Assembly (NCBI GenBank): GCA_028715725.1
Contig: JAQURG010000016.1
Span: forward strand, 1-64,000
Origin: Methylococcales bacterium
Lineage (GTDB): Bacteria > Pseudomonadota > Gammaproteobacteria > Methylococcales > Methylomonadaceae
Length of the DNA: 64,000 nt
Direction: 5' to 3'
In this document: in pieces, positions 33,644-44,998 of the stretch
Layout: each line of letters begins with the position of its first letter
Position numbering within the stretch: the first letter of the stretch is position 1
The notes under the pieces: model-generated
Told to the model about the DNA's origin: nothing
Databases searched by the model: none
Seen by the model: only the letters and a program-made list of their open reading frames with translations
Translations under genes and position numbers: made by a program

Positions 33644-35200
33644 TTAAGTGCAATCCTGCACAGTCTGAACCGTTAAATGCCGTAACCTTAAGCCCGTCAG
33701 AGCCAAGGTTACCGTATAAACCGCCATTCCTATGACAATCCACTTGAGCAAATTAATCACCCGTTCTCCTGAGCTCCACTGATTCCACCAACTCGCATCA
33801 ACCAGCCAGTACAGGGCGGCCGCCATAGCCGCGCCTGCCAATAACACACGCATAAAAAAAACCGGCCATCCACTGGCAGGTTGATACACTTTTTCCTTGA
33901 GTAATTTTTGTAGCAGTAAAGCGGCATTAAAAAAAGCCCCCAGAGAAGTCGCCAAAGCCAGGCCGGCATGAGCCAAAGGAAAAACCAAAACCAGATTCAA
34001 GCCTAAACTGGCTATCATCGCATAAAAACCATAGCGAACCGGCGTTTTCATATCCTGACGCGAAGTAAAACCCGATACCAAAACCTTAATCAGTATATAC
34101 CCCAACAAACCGATCGAGTAAGCTCTAAGACTCAGTCCTGCCGAATGTACATCGCTAATGCTGAATTCATTATACTGAAACAAGGTTGACAACATCGGTT
34201 CGGCTAATAACAGCAAGCCGATAGTCGCCGGCATACCGACCAGAAGCACCAGCCGCAAACCCCAATCCAGCGCATAAGAAAAAGCCGCCGAATCTTCCGC
34301 CGCATGACATTTAGCCAGGCCCGGCAAAATGACCGTTCCCAGGGCCAGTCCTAAAATACCCACCGGAAATTCCACCAGCCGATCAGAATAATAAAGCCAG
34401 GACACACTGCCAACGGTTAAAAAAGAAGCAATCAAGGTGTCCAGCAGCAAATTGATCTGAGTCACTGAAACGCTGAAAATTGCCGGCAGCATGAGGCCGA
34501 TAATCTTGTTAACGCCGGAATCGTTAAATCCCAGCTTTAATTTCGGCATCAGGCCCAAACGGATCAAGGGCGGAATCTGAAACAACAACTGCACAATACC
34601 TGCGGCGAAAACACCCCAGGCTAACGCCACAACGGGTTCATCCATTAAAGGGGCAAGCCGGATGCTGGCGGCAATCATGCAGATATTGAGAAAGACCGGC
34701 GTTAACGCAGGGACGGCAAATTTGCCATGAGCATTCAAGATGCCGCCGGCAAAAGCAACCAGGCCGATAAAAAGCAGATAAGGCAAGGTTATCCGCAACA
34801 AGAGCACAGCCAGTTCATGTTGCGAGCCTTGCCATGCAAAGCCCGGAGCCAATAACATAATCAATACCGGCGCGATGACAATACCCATGACGGTAATCAG
34901 CATTAAAATTAACGCTAATGTTCCGGCTGTTCTATCGATGAACTGTTGTAACGCAGCTTTAGTACCCTGCGTCTTGTAATCCGCCAGAACCGGAACGAAA
35001 GCATGGGCAAACGCTCCTTCGGCAAATAAGCGGCGCAGGAAGTTGGGAATTTTGAACGCCACAAAAAAGGCGTCAGTCGCTATATCGACACCGAAAATAC
35101 GAGCAATCAACATATCCCGCACAAATCCCAGAATACGTGAAATCAGCGTCATACCGCTTACAACTACAGTTGCCTTGAAGAGTCTTTCGCTCAAAGTCAC
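33644..35200 (-). CDS. murJ: Lipid II flippase MurJ (MviN)
   Basis: SGMTLISRILGFVRDMLIARIFGV; FFVAFKIPNFLRRLFAEGAFAHAFVPVLADYK. Confidence 0.96.
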   Translation of the reverse strand: MTLSERLFKATVVVSGMTLISRILGFVRDMLIARIFGVDIATDAFFVAFKIPNFLRRLFAEGAFAHAFVPVLADYKTQGTKAALQQFIDRTAGTLALILMLITVMGIVIAPVLIMLLAPGFAWQGSQHELAVLLLRITLPYLLFIGLVAFAGGILNAHGKFAVPALTPVFLNICMIAASIRLAPLMDEPVVALAWGVFAAGIVQLLFQIPPLIRLGLMPKLKLGFNDSGVNKIIGLMLPAIFSVSVTQINLLLDTLIASFLTVGSVSWLYYSDRLVEFPVGILGLALGTVILPGLAKCHAAEDSAAFSYALDWGLRLVLLVGMPATIGLLLLAEPMLSTLFQYNEFSISDVHSAGLSLRAYSIGLLGYILIKVLVSGFTSRQDMKTPVRYGFYAMIASLGLNLVLVFPLAHAGLALATSLGAFFNAALLLQKLLKEKVYQPASGWPVFFMRVLLAGAAMAAALYWLVDASWWNQWSSGERVINLLKWIVIGMAVYTVTLALTGLRLRHLTVQTVQDCT

Positions 35201-35338
35201 CTCCTTATTGGAACATAATTATTTAGAAAATAGGTGATATTGTATAATAATCAGTCACCAGGCATATAAGCATCCTGTGCAGTATGCGTTATATAAGAAA
35301 TCAATCCCAGCAAGAGGAACAAGAACATCCGAAACGCA

Positions 35339-36595
35339 TTGACGAGTTTATCAGACAGCAGTGCGTCGCCAGCGGTCGCGATTATTGGAGGCGGTCCGGC
35401 CGGATTAATGGCTGCCGAAGTTTTAAGTCAGGCGGGGGTGCAGGTTGATCTTTTTGACGCCATGCCCTCGGTAGGACGAAAATTTTTGATGGCAGGCAAA
35501 GGCGGCATGAATATATCCCACTCTGAGCCATTCGATCAATTTTTGTCACGTTACGGCGCGCGCCGCTCCAATATCGAACCGATGCTTAGGCATTTTATGC
35601 CTGAGGACTTACAGACATGGGCGCAAGGTCTTGGCATCAATACGTTCATTGGTTCATCAGGGCGAATTTTTCCAGTTGATATGAAAGCGGCACCTTTATT
35701 ACGCGCCTGGCTGCACAGGTTACGCGGAAACGGCGTCAATTTTCATATGCGCAACCAATGGCTGGGCTGGACGGATAATAAAAACAATTTTCTCCGTTTT
35801 AAAACGCCGACAGGTGAGCGCCAAATAGAAGCTGATGCGACAGTACTTGCCTTGGGAGGCGGCAGTTGGCCGAAGCTGGGTTCAACGGGGGCCTGGGTAT
35901 CACTGTTAACTGAAAGAGGAGTTCCGGTTGAACCCTTGCAACCTTCAAACTGCGGGTTTGATGTCCGCTGGAGTAAACATTTTCGAGACCGGTTTGCAGG
36001 ACAGCCCTTGAAACCTGTATGCCTGTCCTTTAGCAATTCAGAAGGCATTAAATTTTCGAGGCAGGGTGAATTAGTTATTACCGAAACCGGCATTGAAGGC
36101 AGTCTGGTTTATGCCCTGTCTGCGCCATTGCGTGAAGAAATTACTGGAACAGGGTCCGCGCTTATCCATCTGGATTTGGCACCCGACAAGGACTTGCCGT
36201 TTCTTGTTGAAAGAGCTTCACAAGGGCTGGGCAAAAATTCGATGGCAAACCATCTTCGGAAACGCATAGGCATTAATAAAGTCAAAACCGGCCTGCTTAG
36301 AGAATTGATGTCCGCTTCAGACTTTCGCGACCCTGTGCAACTTTGTACTACTATTAAAGCCTTACCTCTTACACTGATTGCGGCCAGACCTCTTGAGGAG
36401 GCTATCAGCAGTGCCGGCGGCATTGCCTTTGAAGCGCTCGATCCGCAGTTAATGATCCGCGCCATGCCAGGCGTGTTCTGTGCCGGAGAAATGCTGGATT
36501 GGGAGGCTCCAACCGGCGGATACTTGCTAACTGCCTGTTTTGCGAGTGGGCGTACCGCAGGCTTGGGAGTATTAAACTGGTTAACCTGCCATTAA
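35339..36595 (+). CDS. BaiN/HI0933-type flavoprotein (TIGR03862-like)
   Basis: FAD Rossmann AIIGGGPAGLMAAEVLSQAG; KFLMAGKGGMNISHSE; FCAGEMLDWEAPTGGYLLTACFASGRTAG. Confidence 0.9.
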   Translation: MTSLSDSSASPAVAIIGGGPAGLMAAEVLSQAGVQVDLFDAMPSVGRKFLMAGKGGMNISHSEPFDQFLSRYGARRSNIEPMLRHFMPEDLQTWAQGLGINTFIGSSGRIFPVDMKAAPLLRAWLHRLRGNGVNFHMRNQWLGWTDNKNNFLRFKTPTGERQIEADATVLALGGGSWPKLGSTGAWVSLLTERGVPVEPLQPSNCGFDVRWSKHFRDRFAGQPLKPVCLSFSNSEGIKFSRQGELVITETGIEGSLVYALSAPLREEITGTGSALIHLDLAPDKDLPFLVERASQGLGKNSMANHLRKRIGINKVKTGLLRELMSASDFRDPVQLCTTIKALPLTLIAARPLEEAISSAGGIAFEALDPQLMIRAMPGVFCAGEMLDWEAPTGGYLLTACFASGRTAGLGVLNWLTCH

Positions 36596-36801
36596 TCCTG
36601 AAAAAAACGTAAGACAATCGAGCCCAAACGTAACACATTGACTCATCACCAACGACTGCGTGCCGAAGCCAATAAATTGATTTAAAAATTATAGAAAAAA
36701 GTTAAATATGATTAAAAGAAACCCCTTATCCATCCCTTTTGTTAAAAAAAGATTTTTACTGTTTTCAACTTTTTCCAGAGCAGTTTGAAAAGGAGACGAT
36801 A

Positions 36802-37644
36802 ATGAAAACGCCAAAAAGTCTCGAACCTCTGGTACATGACGGTCTCGTCGATGAAGTTTTGCGGCCCTTAAAAAGCGGCAAGGAGGCTGCGGTCTATGTA
36901 GTACTCTCCGAAGGTGAAATCCGCTGCGCCAAAGTCTATAAAGAAGCCAACAAGCGCGGCTTCCATAAGCAGGCCTTATATCAGGAAGGCCGCAAGGTGC
37001 GCAATAGCCGCCAGGCTCGCGCCATGGAAAAAAACACCCGTTTCGGCAGGAAGCAACAGGAAGAAGTATGGCAAAATGCTGAAGTCGATGCTTTATATCG
37101 GCTGGCCGCCGCCGGAGTACGTGTTCCAAAGCCTTATAATTTTGTCGAAGGCGTGTTGCTCATGGAACTGGTCACTGATGAACACGGAGAAGCCGCGCCA
37201 AGACTTAATGATTTACAATTAACCGATGAGCAAGCACTGGAATATCACAGCATCCTGATTAAAGAAGTGGTCAAGATGCTCTGCGCGGGAATTATCCATG
37301 GCGATCTGTCTGAATACAACATACTGATCGACGAGCAGGGCCCGGTTATCATTGATTTGCCGCAGGCTGTTGATGCGGCGGCCAACAATAACGCTGCGAG
37401 AATGCTGGAGCGGGACGTCAATAATCTGGCGGATTATTTCGGCCGTTTTGCACCTCAATTGCTGACTACCCGCTATGGTAAAGAAATCTGGAAGCTGTAC
37501 GAAAGCGGCAATTTGACTCCTGACATCAAGCTGACCGGCCATTTCAAAAGCAGCTCCAAAGTGGCCGACGTAAAAAGTATTATGAGAGAAATCAAGGATG
37601 CAAGAGAGGATGCCATAAAACATAAATACGAGCGGGACAACTAA
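36802..37644 (+). CDS. RIO1-type serine kinase (PA4780-like)
   Basis: PLKSGKEAAVYVVLSEGEIRCAKVYK; HGDLSEYNILID; VIIDLPQAVDA. AGGAG RBS precedes the ATG at 36802; the track start 36739 is less likely. Confidence 0.9.
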   Translation: MKTPKSLEPLVHDGLVDEVLRPLKSGKEAAVYVVLSEGEIRCAKVYKEANKRGFHKQALYQEGRKVRNSRQARAMEKNTRFGRKQQEEVWQNAEVDALYRLAAAGVRVPKPYNFVEGVLLMELVTDEHGEAAPRLNDLQLTDEQALEYHSILIKEVVKMLCAGIIHGDLSEYNILIDEQGPVIIDLPQAVDAAANNNAARMLERDVNNLADYFGRFAPQLLTTRYGKEIWKLYESGNLTPDIKLTGHFKSSSKVADVKSIMREIKDAREDAIKHKYERDN

Positions 37645-38056: not shown

Positions 38057-39577
38057 ATGGCTAATAAAATTGTCGTAGTATTTGTGCATGGCTGGAGCGT
38101 CACTAATACGGATACTTACGGCGGATTACCCGCCCGCCTGAGCGCTGAAGCTAGAGCCTTGGGGATCGATATTCAACTTGAAGAAATTTATCTGGGCCGC
38201 TATATCAGCTTTCATGATGAAGTACGCGTCAGTGATATCTCAAGGGCATTTAGCACAGCGGTTGAAGATCAGCTATCTGATATCTTAAAAGCCGGAAACC
38301 GTTTCATATGCATAACGCACTCAACCGGCGGTCCGGTCATTCGCGATTGGTGGCATCGCTATTATCAGACAGACCCGAAAAACGGCATCTGTCCCATGAG
38401 CCATCTTATTATGCTGGCGCCAGCCAACTTCGGTTCCACGTTAGCCCAATTGGGCAAAAGCCGGATAAGCAGAATCAAGTCCTGGTTCGCAGGAGTTGAA
38501 CCCGGCCAGGGAGTACTCGACTGGCTCGAGCTAGGCAGCTCAGAAGCATGGGATCTGAACGTCGACTGGATAAACAGTAGTGACGCGAGTCAGGTTGATC
38601 CTGACAGAGTCTTTCTTTTTGTGCTTACAGGTCAATCGATCGATCGCACGCTTTACGATAATCTGAATTCCTATACGGGAGAGCTGGGTTCAGATGGCAT
38701 TGTGCGCGTTGCAGCGGCAAATCTTAACAGCACATATATCAAACTGGAGCAGGAGACTCCAAAACCCGGCAAAAAAGGCGTATTTATAGCTAACGAACTG
38801 AAGGTCAAAACTATCAAGCAGGCGCCGAATACCGCCATGCGAATAATAAGCGGCAAGTCCCACTCCGGCAAGGATATGGGCATCATACGCAGCGTCAAGG
38901 AAACGTTGAACGATCCCAAAAGCAAGGAAACTGTTGATGCGGTTCTTGCGTGTATCCAGGTTCAAACGAATGATCAGTATATGGCGTTAAGCGGCCGGTT
39001 CATGTCTGAAACCGAAACGGTCCAGAAAAATGAATTAATTGAAGTTGAAACACACTTGCTCAAGTCGGACACCTACTTCATCCACGACCGGTTCTCGATG
39101 GTCATCTTTCGGGTGCAGGACGACAAAGGTCATCCGGTTACTGATTATGACCTGATTCTTACCGCCGGCCCGGATGCCGATCCCAACCATCTTCCGGTCG
39201 GTTTCTTCATGGACCGCCAGCGCAACCATGTCAATCCTGAAGTCATCACTTATTACTTCAACCGCGACATCATGAAGGGGACGAAAGCTGCCAAAATCAA
39301 AAACGGCATGACTCTAAGAGAAGGAACAACGGGCGCCGAAATGTTGGGTTTTCAATTAAAAGCCAGGCCAAATACCGGGTTTGTGCATTATCTGCCCTGT
39401 GAAATTAAAGCTTCCCAGGAAATGCTTGAAACTGCGATACACGGCAATAGCACTACACTGATCGACATCTGTCTGCGGCGTGTGGTTCGTAAAAATGTAT
39501 TCCGCCTCGATAAATTAACAAGCCCGGTCAAGCCGGATTTCAAAAATACCAAGCCAGGTGACGAAATCGTTGAATAA
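38057..39577 (+). CDS. Alpha/beta-hydrolase (lipase/phospholipase-like) with C-terminal extension
   Basis: VVVFVHGWSVTNTDTYGGLP oxyanion segment, nucleophile elbow ITHSTGGPVIRDW, long C-terminal domain. Confidence 0.7.
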   Translation: MANKIVVVFVHGWSVTNTDTYGGLPARLSAEARALGIDIQLEEIYLGRYISFHDEVRVSDISRAFSTAVEDQLSDILKAGNRFICITHSTGGPVIRDWWHRYYQTDPKNGICPMSHLIMLAPANFGSTLAQLGKSRISRIKSWFAGVEPGQGVLDWLELGSSEAWDLNVDWINSSDASQVDPDRVFLFVLTGQSIDRTLYDNLNSYTGELGSDGIVRVAAANLNSTYIKLEQETPKPGKKGVFIANELKVKTIKQAPNTAMRIISGKSHSGKDMGIIRSVKETLNDPKSKETVDAVLACIQVQTNDQYMALSGRFMSETETVQKNELIEVETHLLKSDTYFIHDRFSMVIFRVQDDKGHPVTDYDLILTAGPDADPNHLPVGFFMDRQRNHVNPEVITYYFNRDIMKGTKAAKIKNGMTLREGTTGAEMLGFQLKARPNTGFVHYLPCEIKASQEMLETAIHGNSTTLIDICLRRVVRKNVFRLDKLTSPVKPDFKNTKPGDEIVE

Positions 39578-39661: not shown

Positions 39662-40420
39662 CTATTCGGCCAAAGCCAGCGATTTAAACAACTGCGTATT
39701 TTTTGGAATCAAGGCATAATCACACAGGGCCATAAATGGCGCATCGGTTTTACTGTCACCTGCACCAAAGGTCAATAATTCCGGATGCTGCTGTTTGTAA
39801 CTGTCGATCAAGTAACTGACGGCGCTTTCTTTATTAATGATTTTCGGCAATACGGCAAGATTGTTGCCGTTCAGATGCCAGTATAAACTGCCGTCAGCTA
39901 TATGCGGATGTGCTTTAATAATGCTGTCCAGTAACGTTCTTAAAACTGTTTCAGTTCCGTCAATATGCTTGATCACGCCATACCAGGTTATCTCGAAATC
40001 ATGTATCAGCCGGGATTTAAAGCCATTATAACGCTTGCAATACGCCTCAACCTCTGTCCATACATCCAGCAATTTTGCATGATAAACGGGTAAGGCTTCT
40101 AACATTCCATTCATCCATACGTTATCGATATTGCGCTGCTTATCCAGAATAACTGCGCCATGATTCAATATTACTTCCTCCTGAAAAGGCAGCATTACGC
40201 GTTCGAAAGCGTGCCCATCACGCCCGGTGACCGGCACGATTTTGAAACCTTGGGCCAGCCAATGCCACAGCCATTGTTGCTTATGGGTAGCGTAGGAATT
40301 AGGCGTGCCGTCAGGTAAACAGGCCCGCACTTGTAACCTGGGATCATCAGCACCCAAGGCGCATTTTCTTAAAGTTTGAAAAAGCGTGTCATCAAGGTCT
40401 AAAAAAATATAGCTTTGCAT
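39662..40420 (-). CDS. HAD-superfamily phosphatase in Ter-like operon
   Basis: DxD motif FLDLDDTLFQ; VTGRD; GAGDSKTDAPFMALCDYALIP. Start proposed at MQSYIF. Confidence 0.85.
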   Translation of the reverse strand: MQSYIFLDLDDTLFQTLRKCALGADDPRLQVRACLPDGTPNSYATHKQQWLWHWLAQGFKIVPVTGRDGHAFERVMLPFQEEVILNHGAVILDKQRNIDNVWMNGMLEALPVYHAKLLDVWTEVEAYCKRYNGFKSRLIHDFEITWYGVIKHIDGTETVLRTLLDSIIKAHPHIADGSLYWHLNGNNLAVLPKIINKESAVSYLIDSYKQQHPELLTFGAGDSKTDAPFMALCDYALIPKNTQLFKSLALAE

Positions 40421-41585
40421 GATTTGAGTTTTGCGGTTGAAGTTCAAATCGTGCACTGACCGCTTGCCAAGCGTGCAATCGGTCGGTTAGCGGTTTATCG
40501 AGGGGCGTTTCATGGCACACGATAATTTCGCGATAATCGTCAGACTTCAAATTGTAAATAAAATTTGGAATGCCGTCTTCGTAGTTGTCTTCAAATCGGC
40601 ATACCGAAGCAATATCATTGCCCTGATGAATCGGCGAACGCGTCGTGCTTTGCACTTTTACTTTAAAGCCTCCGGATTCCAGTTCCCGCCCCAGTAAATA
40701 AGCCGGAGCATTACATTCGCCGGTACCCAGCACCAGAATGGGTAGGTGAGCACCGGAATCGCTAAAGACACTCCTGCATTGTTCCACAACATCCGGTTCC
40801 AGACTGATCGGGGCATCGATGCCCAACCGTCCCGGCCAAGCCAGCAAATGCTTTTTACACTGGCCGTTACCCGATACATTAACAGTAATATTATCAATGT
40901 CCGTATTTTGACTGTCCTCAAAACGCAAGAGGCCCTGCCTGAAACAAACCCATTCCACCACAACTCCTGCCTGGGATTCCAGAGCAGCACGGTCTTCAGA
41001 GTTAGCAAAATTTACCAGGCTAACAATAAATACTTTACGCAGCTCTGGATTAATCTTTTGATAGGCTTTGATGAGGCGTAAGAATGTTTTCCCGGTGCTG
41101 ATTTCATCGTCGATCAATACCAGGGTTTCCGCCTGTAAAAACTGCTTTCTATAATCCGGATGCTCAGGATAATACAGGAAAAAGTCAGTAGCATGACTGT
41201 GTGCTTCTTCAAACTCAAGCCGCTCAATGCTATCCAGATGATAACGGGTAGTCTGCATGAATAAAGCGTTTTTTATCCCGGTATTGCAAGCCGCCTCAAA
41301 AACTCCATAACCCAGGCCGGTTGCAGTTTCCGCCATACCTATCCACAATGAGCCCTCCCCCGCCCCGTTTTGTATCGCGGCTCTGGCCAATCCACGATAA
41401 GACCAGCTCATGGTTTTCGGCGATACCGGGTAATGTTTACCCAATACCTTGCTGACCAGTAAAAACTTGCGTTTACTGCTTACCCGTGCCGCAAAACCCA
41501 GCAAACGCCTGAGCGGAATATGCCCAGGCTCCACATCGAGCTGAAGTGTTCCGGTATCTAATTTAATCGTTACTGTTTTTTGCAT
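40392..41585 (-). CDS. Phosphoribosyltransferase-domain protein of Ter-like operon
   Basis: PRPP-loop-like LVLIDDEISTGKTFLRLI; GLARAAIQNGAGEGSLWIGMAETATGLG; C-terminal LVLGTGECNAPAYLLGRELE; overlaps the HAD start. Confidence 0.82.
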   Translation of the reverse strand: MQKTVTIKLDTGTLQLDVEPGHIPLRRLLGFAARVSSKRKFLLVSKVLGKHYPVSPKTMSWSYRGLARAAIQNGAGEGSLWIGMAETATGLGYGVFEAACNTGIKNALFMQTTRYHLDSIERLEFEEAHSHATDFFLYYPEHPDYRKQFLQAETLVLIDDEISTGKTFLRLIKAYQKINPELRKVFIVSLVNFANSEDRAALESQAGVVVEWVCFRQGLLRFEDSQNTDIDNITVNVSGNGQCKKHLLAWPGRLGIDAPISLEPDVVEQCRSVFSDSGAHLPILVLGTGECNAPAYLLGRELESGGFKVKVQSTTRSPIHQGNDIASVCRFEDNYEDGIPNFIYNLKSDDYREIIVCHETPLDKPLTDRLHAWQAVSARFELQPQNSNHAKLYFFRP

Positions 41586-41614
41586 GGTCTGCTAAGTTGA
41601 AGCGTTTCGGATTA

Positions 41615-41944
41615 TTAGCTGAAAAGTGTGGCGCACTGAATCAGGAAATGCAGCCCGGCAGCTTTAATATCCAGAAACGATAAAGCGCTGGCTCTGAACA
41701 TTCCCACGACCCCCACCATAATCCAGAAGACGTTCAGCAAGGTATAAGCGTTGTCATTTTTAAGAATGGAACACCAGGAAAGTATCACCGCATCCGTTGT
41801 ATTAAAAGCCCAAACAAACATAAACGGACTTTCTGCGCCCATCCAGCTGACCAGCGAAAAACTGAAAATACGCATCAGCACGCCGACCATTTCGATGAAA
41901 CGGATATAGGTATAAACGAATGAATTTATTTTATTGAAGGACAT
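41615..41944 (-). CDS. Small multi-TM protein in Ter-like operon
   Basis: 109 aa, about three hydrophobic segments, embedded co-directionally between PRTase and ATP-grasp genes. Confidence 0.65.
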   Translation of the reverse strand: MSFNKINSFVYTYIRFIEMVGVLMRIFSFSLVSWMGAESPFMFVWAFNTTDAVILSWCSILKNDNAYTLLNVFWIMVGVVGMFRASALSFLDIKAAGLHFLIQCATLFS

Positions 41945-42004
41945 AGTTAAGGCTGACTCATGCTAATTGCATGAATTATCAGAGCAAAAGCTCATTATAA
42001 TTAA

Positions 42005-43018
42005 TTATTGCAAAATCACAGGCGTATTAATTTCAGTCACCTTAAGCCCATAATTAATAACCGGCTGCTGAAAGGTTTCACCTTTAATGCCCTGCAGGGC
42101 GATATGCGCCAAATTTGCACCTGATAAGCATGCCATCCCGAAACCTCCGGAAGGCCTCGGATTAATTTCCAATAACCGCGGCCCATTCACACCGTCCTTG
42201 AACTGGATATTGAACAAACCATTAAGCCGGAAGTGTGTGGTTAACCGGATCACCATGCCACCGATTTCTGCATTGTTGTCTATGAGCTGCCCGTGGCCTG
42301 CCAATTGCGATTTCTTTCGCTGCACGGCGCATAATAAATCTCCATGCCGTCCTGCACAATCGACACTCCATTCATGTCCTGCCAGGTGTTCCATAACCAG
42401 CAGCGTGTCGAATTTCGGGGTATTACTCATGCCTTGCCGCAACTCTTGCAGCGGAATCTGGTACTCGACATCCTTGAGTAAGTGGGTAATACTGTCGCGC
42501 TGCGTGTCTAAAATTCGAAAACCCAGACCATAGACCGAAACCGCGGGTTTAACGCACAGCCTTTCATGTTTTGCCGATAATTCTTTAACTGCACTGTCAA
42601 ACTCGTCGCCGTTATTGACTGCAAAAAAATCCATGGTTTGCGCTACATCCGGGCTCAAGCCTGCATAAAAGTCCGCCTTGTTGTGAAGTAAGTTGAGTGT
42701 GTCATGATCGGCGACTGACACCACTTGCGTGCCCATTGCCTGAAACGGTTCATGATATTGACTGATGAGAGCCGCTTCCTTGCCTGGCCAAAATAGCTGA
42801 ATGTCATGCCGGTGACAAAAATCCACACACCATTCAACATAGTCTCGTCCCGTCAATTCGGCAGGCTCAAGGTAGTTTTCGTCAGCCGATAAAAATGCCG
42901 CCGCGGTTGTGTGCGTGTGTGTGCAAATCAGAGTGATCCCGCCAGCCGGAGCTGACTGGCGAAGATTTTTAAAAACGGAGCCGATAGTTGAAAACGTTTT
43001 GTTAAACCAGACCCTCAT
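42005..43018 (-). CDS. ATP-grasp enzyme of Ter-like operon
   Basis: LCVKPAVSVYGLGFRIL, VMEHLAGHEWSVDC, NGLFNIQFKDGVNGPRLLEINPRPSGG; start overlaps the upstream TerD stop (TAATG). Confidence 0.88.
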   Translation of the reverse strand: MRVWFNKTFSTIGSVFKNLRQSAPAGGITLICTHTHTTAAAFLSADENYLEPAELTGRDYVEWCVDFCHRHDIQLFWPGKEAALISQYHEPFQAMGTQVVSVADHDTLNLLHNKADFYAGLSPDVAQTMDFFAVNNGDEFDSAVKELSAKHERLCVKPAVSVYGLGFRILDTQRDSITHLLKDVEYQIPLQELRQGMSNTPKFDTLLVMEHLAGHEWSVDCAGRHGDLLCAVQRKKSQLAGHGQLIDNNAEIGGMVIRLTTHFRLNGLFNIQFKDGVNGPRLLEINPRPSGGFGMACLSGANLAHIALQGIKGETFQQPVINYGLKVTEINTPVILQ

Positions 43019-43611
43019 TACAAGTGAACAATAATTTGCGGCAGCAAGTTATCAATGGTTCGGCCGGTGCCATTTTCACCAATCGCATGCATTTTCCATT
43101 CGCCGCCATGGCGGTATAGTTTGGCCATGATTTGCGCCGTATGCGAACCTTGCGCACTTAAAGTGTATCGGGCAATTTCATTTTTATTGCTGTTATCGAC
43201 AAGGCGGCAATAGGCATTTTCAACCGTATTAAAAGTTTGGCCGGTATAAGAACTGACGGTAAATACCAGCGCTTTAACAGTCGCCGGAATTTTGTCCAGA
43301 TCAACGATGATTTGTTCGTCATCACCATCGCCGTCACCGGTACGGTTATCGCCTGTATGCACAATACTGCCGTCACGGCTTTTTAATTGCCCGAAATAGA
43401 CGATATCAACCGGCTTGTTCTGATCGTCGAATAATACGCAGGATGCGTCAAGATCAATAGAATCGCTGCTTCCGCCGCCGAACATGCCTTTCAACAAGCC
43501 GCTGCCGGTTTTTTTGGCATCCCAACCCAAGCCCATGATAACTTTACTTAATGCACCGCCGGATTCTTTGGATAGCGATATTTTTTGTCCCTTTTGTAAA
43601 TTAATAGCCAT
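43018..43611 (-). CDS. TerD-family protein (TerZ-like, with glycine-rich insertion)
   Basis: [63 protein letters not shown]. Confidence 0.92.
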   Translation of the reverse strand: MAINLQKGQKISLSKESGGALSKVIMGLGWDAKKTGSGLLKGMFGGGSSDSIDLDASCVLFDDQNKPVDIVYFGQLKSRDGSIVHTGDNRTGDGDGDDEQIIVDLDKIPATVKALVFTVSSYTGQTFNTVENAYCRLVDNSNKNEIARYTLSAQGSHTAQIMAKLYRHGGEWKMHAIGENGTGRTIDNLLPQIIVHL

Positions 43612-43815
43612 AAATCGTATTGCTCCTGTATTTAAACAATGTAAGGATTCACCGGCGTCCACCTGATAAATCGAGTTTTCCGGCCTGGGGTTATGGCATA
43701 CGTAGTTGCAGGATAGCCATAACCCAACCCAGAAAGTGTTTTATTAAAAATTGTATTCGGCAGCTTTGCTGACTATCAATAAGTGATACGCGCAGAAGCG
43801 TGGAATGTTGCCGGC

Positions 43816-44391
43816 TTAAACATTCACGCCGAAAGAAGTAGCCAAAGGCCCAAGACCGCCTGCGAAACCTTGCCCGACAGCTTTAAATTTCCAGTCTGAG
43901 CCAATGCGATAGATTTCGCCGAAGATCATCGCTGTTTCGACTGAGGCATCTTCGCTCAGATCATAACGGGCAATTTCCTGTCCATTTTCTTCATTGATAA
44001 CCCGGATATAAGCATGGTTAACCTGGCCAAAATTCTGTTTACGGGTTTCAGCTTCATGAATGGTCACAGCAAAAACGACCTTGTCCAAATCAGCAGGAAT
44101 TTTAGCCAGTTCGACCTTAACAGTTTCATCGTCACCCTCGCCCGCACCTGTCAAATTATCACCTGCATGTTGAACAGCTCCATCGGCAACGATTTTATTA
44201 TTGTAAAAGCAAAAATCGTTATCTGATCGGACTTTGCCATCCAGTTTGACTAAAAATGCACTGGCATCCAGATCGAATGCCGCACCATCGGTTGCACGTG
44301 CATCCCAACCCAGACCAATCACGATTTTATTCAATCCCGGCGCTTCTTTGCTTAAGTTAACGTTGCCGCCTTTACTAAGTGATATTGCCAT
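43816..44391 (-). CDS. TerD-family protein
   Basis: [62 protein letters not shown]. Confidence 0.95.
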
Positions 44392-44422
44392 CAGTGTCCC
44401 CTGTTATTATTAAGTTTTATAG

Positions 44423-44998
44423 TTAAATATTTATTCCGTATTGACGCGCTAAAGCGGCCAATCCGCCGGCATAACCTTGTCCTACGGCTTTAAATTTCCA
44501 TTCACCGCTGTGCCGGTAAATTTCGCCGAAGATCATCGCTGTTTCAATGGATGCATCCTCGCTTAAATCGTACCGGGCAACTTCATTGTTAGAGTCCTTG
44601 TTAACCACCCTGACATACGCATGATTTACCTGGCCGAAGTTCTGTTTGCGCATGTCCGCGTTATATATGGTGACGCAAAAAACAACCTTTTGAATATCCG
44701 CGGGCACCTTATCGAGCAGGACTATAACCGCCTCGTCATCGCCATCGCCCGCACCTGTACGGTTGTCGCCGGTGTGTTCGACTGAACCACAACCGGATTT
44801 GGTCTGATTGTAGAAAATGAAATCACTGTCTGACCTGACTTTGCCATCTTCCTTGACCATAAATGCGCTCGCATCCAGATCAAAATCCGCACCATCAGTA
44901 GGTCTTGCATCCCAACCCAAACCCACAATCACATTTTTTAAACCGGGATCTGTTTTGGACAAACTGACATTGCCGCCTTTATTTAATGAAATACCCAT
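44423..44998 (-). CDS. TerD-family protein
   Basis: [62 protein letters not shown]. Confidence 0.95.

Follow-up and report, generated by a model that had tools for sequence, protein, structure and literature searches.

Is the Ter-type operon at positions 39662-44998 of a Methylococcales contig (JAQURG010000016.1, assembly GCA_028715725.1) a complete and reduced system in itself, or is it part of a larger one? The window, i.e. the whole stretch of 64,000 nucleotides analysed here, contains at these positions seven co-directional genes on the minus strand, and a preliminary description of the window had considered them a minimal Ter version, whose enzymatic and TerD arms might do without the usual membrane hub. 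Our analyses lead to another answer: with a probability that we estimate at about 0.85, the operon is one half of a canonical, near-complete Ter cluster split into sub-operons, the blocks of which belong to one pathway.

The list of open reading frames (ORFs) and a Pfam scan of the window confirmed the seven genes and their families, in the order TerD1-TerD2-TerD3-ATP-grasp-(small membrane protein)-PRTase/TRSP-HAD, where PRTase stands for phosphoribosyltransferase:

44423-44998, minus strand: TerD1, 191 aa, TerD domain (Pfam TerD, 295 bits), with an ortholog in the same position in relatives
43816-44391, minus strand: TerD2, 191 aa, TerD domain (Pfam TerD, 279 bits)
43018-43611, minus strand: TerD3, TerD domain (Pfam TerD, 195 bits, ORF residues 18-204)
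42005-43018, minus strand: Ter-type ATP-grasp ligase, 337 aa (PF15632, ATPgrasp_Ter, 137 bits, cut-off 29)
41615-41944, minus strand: hydrophobic protein of 109 aa, located in the variable ATP-grasp/PRTase junction, for which about 4 helices are predicted
40392-41585, minus strand: PRTase_2 with a C-terminal TRSP domain, 397 aa (PF15609, 200 bits; PF12500, 61 bits)
39662-40420, minus strand: HAD phosphatase, 252 aa (PF08282, Hydrolase_3, 28 bits, cut-off 21)

The Pfam search of the proteins, a check that the preliminary description had itself proposed, matched the genes to Ter-specific families, so that the naming of a Ter-associated biosynthetic operon holds. Both junctions reported earlier are present in the sequence: the start of the ATP-grasp gene overlaps the TerD3 stop in a TAATG at 43018, and the HAD ATG at 40420 lies inside the PRTase frame, which gives an overlap of 29 bases (40392-40420). 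Comparison with relatives places the HAD start at 40420 and not at the upstream GTG (40456); likewise, the TerD3 ORF opens at a GTG (43662) and its conserved start is the ATG at 43611. TerD3 also carries an insert in its TerD domain after about residue 35. The conserved blocks of the ATP-grasp are intact according to the motif comparison, as are the phosphoribosyl pyrophosphate-binding motif LVLIDDEISTGKT of the PRTase, in which DDEISTG is invariant in 29 genomes (DDEISTGKT in the source genome), and the DLDDT and GDSxxD motifs of the HAD protein, which are conserved across genomes. A chance arrangement is excluded, as tens of genomes repeat this order of genes.

To situate the parts that were missing, profile searches were run over all contigs of the source assembly (3.7 Mb, 128 contigs, 99.98% complete). 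This genome, comprising the window and the rest of the assembly, is called G000 hereafter; the other G-numbers are compared genomes, G001 and G002 being members of the same genus. The following features were found:

C8:42561-45106, minus strand: second block, in the order StiP-PELOTA, C-C bond lyase, TerB
contig C8, beside the lyase, minus strand: StiP-PELOTA (StiP 327 bits, PELOTA 97 bits)
C8:43119-43985, minus strand: HpcH/CitE-like C-C bond lyase, the Ter-type aldolase (PF15617, 310 bits)
contig C8, in the lyase/StiP block, minus strand: TerB (69 bits, cut-off 24)
C34:25445-26449: DUF475/TerC-superfamily membrane protein (DUF475 382 bits; TerC 69 bits, cut-off 28)
contig C77: TelA (380 bits)

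The Ter genes of this genome are therefore spread over four contigs. The window indeed lacks TerC, TerB, TelA and the aldolase, as had been noticed (no such gene is placed there by the ORF list or by searching the genome for TerC, TelA and the aldolase), and the split cluster looked reduced because the 64-kb view held just one half. The suggestion to look for terC and terB in the rest of the genome leads to TerB on C8 and to the DUF475/TerC gene on C34. The TerC-type protein belongs to the DUF475 subfamily, which is also encoded by phage ME3; a DUF475 protein is present in all 18 searched genomes of at least 90% completeness, and its gene lies directly upstream of TerD1 in G009, G030, G035, G055 and G057. 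The tie of TelA on C77 to the Ter system in this genome is putative. Neither TerA nor TerF was found in G000, where the TerD model matches three places genome-wide, all within the window. Both are present in relatives such as G006 (Pfam identification), and as they are accessory and variable in the Ter family their absence is not decisive.

The loci of 29 genomes were mapped with the G000 proteins, the relatives being Methylococcaceae (Methylobacter and others), and the full cluster reads (DUF475)-TerD1-TerD2-(TerF)-TerD3-ATPgrasp-PRTase-HAD-StiP-lyase-(TerA)-TerB. In G040, the genes TerD1-TerD2-TerD3-ATP-grasp-small membrane protein-PRTase-HAD-StiP-lyase-TerB form one stretch, with 71-90% identity to G000. 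The ATP-grasp-PRTase-HAD-StiP-lyase core is contiguous in G005, G006, G017, G025, G028, G029, G030, G032, G050, G052 and G055, some of these clusters holding insertions at the junctions. Of the two partners that the preliminary description would have sought around ATP-grasp homologs, the lyase is contiguous with the core in the genomes just listed, and the TerC-type DUF475 gene stands beside TerD1 in the five named above. The enzyme core is also contiguous and in the same order in the betaproteobacteria Uliginosibacterium and Massilia and on an Enterobacter plasmid. As these outgroups and the plasmid keep the contiguous core, the ancestral arrangement was most likely the contiguous one, from which the split state arose later; the cluster would have been split in the ancestor of this Methylococcaceae genus, the break being at HAD/StiP in G000, G001 and G002.

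An assembly gap was rejected as the cause of the split, both blocks lying well inside their contigs, with the ends 28 and 44 kb away. Furthermore, the neighbours on the C8 side recur in G001 and G002 and those on the window side (33644-37644) in G001; the repetition of these flanks in other assemblies rules out an assembly fault behind the split.

The common history of the two halves was addressed by phylogeny, selection and co-occurrence. The well-supported groups coincide between a tree of ATP-grasp, PRTase and HAD and a tree of StiP and lyase, both of which unite G000, G002 and G040 (bootstrap 91 and 99); an acquisition of the halves from different sources is unsupported, since the front and back trees agree. 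The Ter genes of both halves are under purifying selection: the ratio of nonsynonymous to synonymous substitution rates (dN/dS) is 0.03-0.14 between G000 and G002, both of which are split, and about 0.02-0.14 in the comparisons with G002, G040 and G006, StiP, lyase and TerB included, dS being near saturation in several comparisons, so that only the low ratio counts. StiP is present in 29 of the 29 genomes with a strong PRTase_2 among 101 relatives (Fisher 2e-24, shared ancestry uncorrected) and, outside the order, in 7 of the 7 PRTase_2 genomes of a class sample of 274 (Fisher 5e-14, again uncorrected for shared ancestry); in all seven, PRTase_2 and StiP lie within about 2 kb of each other.

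The positions at which the cluster breaks are restricted. Throughout the 29 genomes, the TerD3/ATP-grasp junction is kept, 2-30 bp separating the two genes; the exception is G001, in which the ATP-grasp gene is broken. The PRTase/HAD overlap is kept in nearly all of them, the exceptions being G009, where a contig end interrupts it, and the most distant relatives G036, G051 and G090, which show small gaps or, in one case, a long one, and the StiP/lyase gaps range from -8 to 47 bp, with a contig-end break in G001 as sole exception. Splits are found between ATP-grasp and PRTase in seven genomes and between HAD and StiP in five, together 11 genomes of six genera. A split was counted only when both genes were about 1 kb or more away from the contig ends, or when they were inverted on one contig; the splits of G001, G009 and G037 touch contig ends and were left out, and the divergent lineage G027/G051 was counted, its ATP-grasp being 31-32% identical and possibly not an ortholog. 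The ATP-grasp/PRTase junction is an insertion site too, which has received the gene of the 109-aa protein (G000, G002, G006 and G040, with a remnant in G001), HEC-01 (G001, G006, G025 and G050) and an AIM24 gene (G017). HEC-01 is a candidate defence pair made of an AAA_21 ATPase and a DUF4276 protein (L090:6079-8089 in G006, also on C11 of G001); the ATP-grasp gene beside it in G001 (C11:18609-19049), an assembly 77% complete, appears to be broken into several fragments.

Several explanations could be issued for these data. A truly reduced operon, working without aldolase, TerB and TerC, could be argued from the location of these three outside the 64-kb window and from the failure to find TerA and TerF in the genome. 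For gene content it is already refuted, the aldolase, TerB, StiP-PELOTA (which the preliminary description did not list among the missing parts), DUF475/TerC and TelA being encoded at three other sites of the same genome, with StiP, lyase and TerB under purifying selection; the claim of a system without its membrane hub is likewise unsupported given the protein encoded on C34, and we find this reading very hard to believe. Another explanation is that TerD with ATP-grasp, PRTase with HAD, and StiP with lyase and TerB are separate modules acting on distinct substrates, their clustering elsewhere reflecting co-regulation and not one pathway. The tight junctions are in agreement with it, StiP/lyase and PRTase/HAD being joined by overlaps or gaps of less than 60 bp in the 29 genomes (apart from the contig-end breaks and G090) and TerD3 being close to ATP-grasp everywhere except in G001, with breaks and insertions at the other two junctions; so are relatives such as G036, which hold PRTase-HAD-StiP-lyase together without an adjoining TerD/ATP-grasp module. 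However, the near-perfect co-occurrence of PRTase and StiP and the identical gene order in distant bacteria favour one pathway, and separate modules appear unlikely. More speculatively, the locus could consist of these three groups as stable sub-operons, free to be dispersed along the chromosome, whose seams collect other genes, among them the candidate anti-phage pair HEC-01 and, here, the new small membrane protein; in that case Ter would act in trans as a signalling pathway and offer a docking site for defence genes, a possibility that we propose tentatively.

Some observations weigh against a single split pathway. A promoter and terminator scan gave no signal above the shuffled background, so that a single transcript for the seven genes stays putative, and the assembly is a draft with the halves on separate contigs. 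The relatives G036, G058, G090 and G010 keep PRTase or StiP but lack a strong Ter-type ATP-grasp, which may therefore not be strictly needed. Finally, we infer the joint working of the two blocks from co-occurrence and ancestry. The split of one pathway nevertheless remains our preferred reading.

The 109-aa ORF is a real gene, as it is kept at the same position in G002, G006 and G040 (71-84% identity) with a dN/dS of 0.10-0.16. Its AlphaFold model is all-helical and of low confidence (predicted local distance difference test score of 54). The protein matches no curated family of Pfam or NCBIfam above cut-off; an assignment to a known family was rejected, its sole match, NCBIfam CBU_0592, being sub-threshold. 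Around the two blocks, a 506-aa alpha/beta-hydrolase-like protein (38057-39577), with weak family matches below cut-off, is convergent with the end of the window operon. On C8, the StiP-lyase-TerB block is followed after about 80 bp, on the same strand, by rsmG and a ParA-type gene (region C8:40964-43013 of G000); G000, G001 and G002 share this neighbourhood, and co-transcription of the block with these chromosome-partition genes is possible.

StiP deserves attention for the chemistry of the pathway. The protein (L087:9007-10107) has two motifs, RAGTPxGVLLK and VDGWTxKG, similar to loops of phosphoribosyltransferases, and its structural neighbours include HGPRT-type phosphoribosyltransferases (probability 0.9-1.00, root mean square deviation 3.2-5 A over about 125 residues, with weak E-values of 0.003-0.02). 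The top structural matches by E-value are unrelated pyridoxal phosphate enzymes with a deviation near 20 A, and a profile search against the PDB gave weak L7Ae-like matches to the C-terminal domain and nothing else. A StiP homolog in a phage is annotated as a phosphoribosyltransferase. The models thus suggest a weak resemblance of StiP to phosphoribosyltransferases in fold; in view of this resemblance and of the motifs, the cysteine protease function implied by the Pfam name is doubtful.

Even for the known Ter systems the product is a prediction, and the order of steps, the product and the stress role that we infer here are conditional. Most likely, the enzymes encoded in the two blocks would cooperate in trans in a single pathway. 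The PRTase, possibly helped by the PRTase-like StiP, would join a phosphoribosyl group to some base; the lyase would form or cleave a C-C bond of a side group, to which the ATP-grasp would ligate a carboxylate or an amino acid, and the HAD protein would take off a phosphate; the diffusible nucleoside-like product may then be sensed by TerD and TerB near the TerC-type membrane protein. The present data add that the genes of these enzymes can lie apart, in agreement with a soluble intermediate and a soluble product. The published proposal is that the Ter enzymes produce a nucleoside-like signal, which TerB and TerD proteins may sense near a TerC membrane protein (PMC7824862, PMC8115787, quoting Anantharaman et al. 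2012, doi 10.1039/c2mb25239b). In E. coli, terZ-F alone is reported to be enough for tellurite resistance (PMC8115787), and the biosynthetic arm described here is thus not to be assumed tellurite-related. PADLOC gave no useful matches that would directly assign the Ter genes to anti-phage defence, and our literature search found nothing to the point on methanotroph Ter loci.

These results remove the claim of a Ter system free of TerC and aldolase, which came from viewing just 64 kb. Naturally split clusters fit the idea of Ter enzymes feeding one diffusible product, the gene pairs that are rarely separated mark which genes belong together biochemically, and non-pathogenic methanotrophs, e.g. 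cultured relatives of Methylobacter, are possible hosts in which to study the Ter product.

Compared with the known Ter system with a biosynthetic module, the genome studied here shares TerD, ATPgrasp_Ter, PRTase_2-TRSP, HAD, StiP-PELOTA, C-C_Bond_Lyase, TerB, TelA and the TerC superfamily, and differs by the distribution over four contigs, the failure to find TerA and TerF, a TerC of the DUF475 type and the extra 109-aa membrane gene. The usual contiguous order ATP-grasp-PRTase-HAD-StiP-lyase, which is not a defining feature, is here split at HAD/StiP; splits are also found in other genera of the family. Near relatives with an unsplit cluster are the methylococcal G040, which shares the small membrane gene, and L151 (Methylococcales AMbin140). 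The Enterobacter mori plasmid NZ_OQ821056.1 has the same ATP-grasp-PRTase-HAD-StiP-HpcH lyase order with TerD, TerB, TerC, TerA-like and TerF-like genes alongside, its biosynthetic proteins being 25-44% identical to those described here; in contrast, all its genes are contiguous, its biosynthetic operon is divergent from the TerD/TerC operon and its TerC is canonical. The Ter region of the Acinetobacter phage vB_AbaM_ME3 shares the order PRTase-HAD-StiP and also encodes a membrane protein of the DUF475 type (312 bits), whereas it is encoded by a jumbo phage, its proteins are 27-46% identical and no ATP-grasp or lyase match was obtained in that stretch at an E-value of 1e-4.

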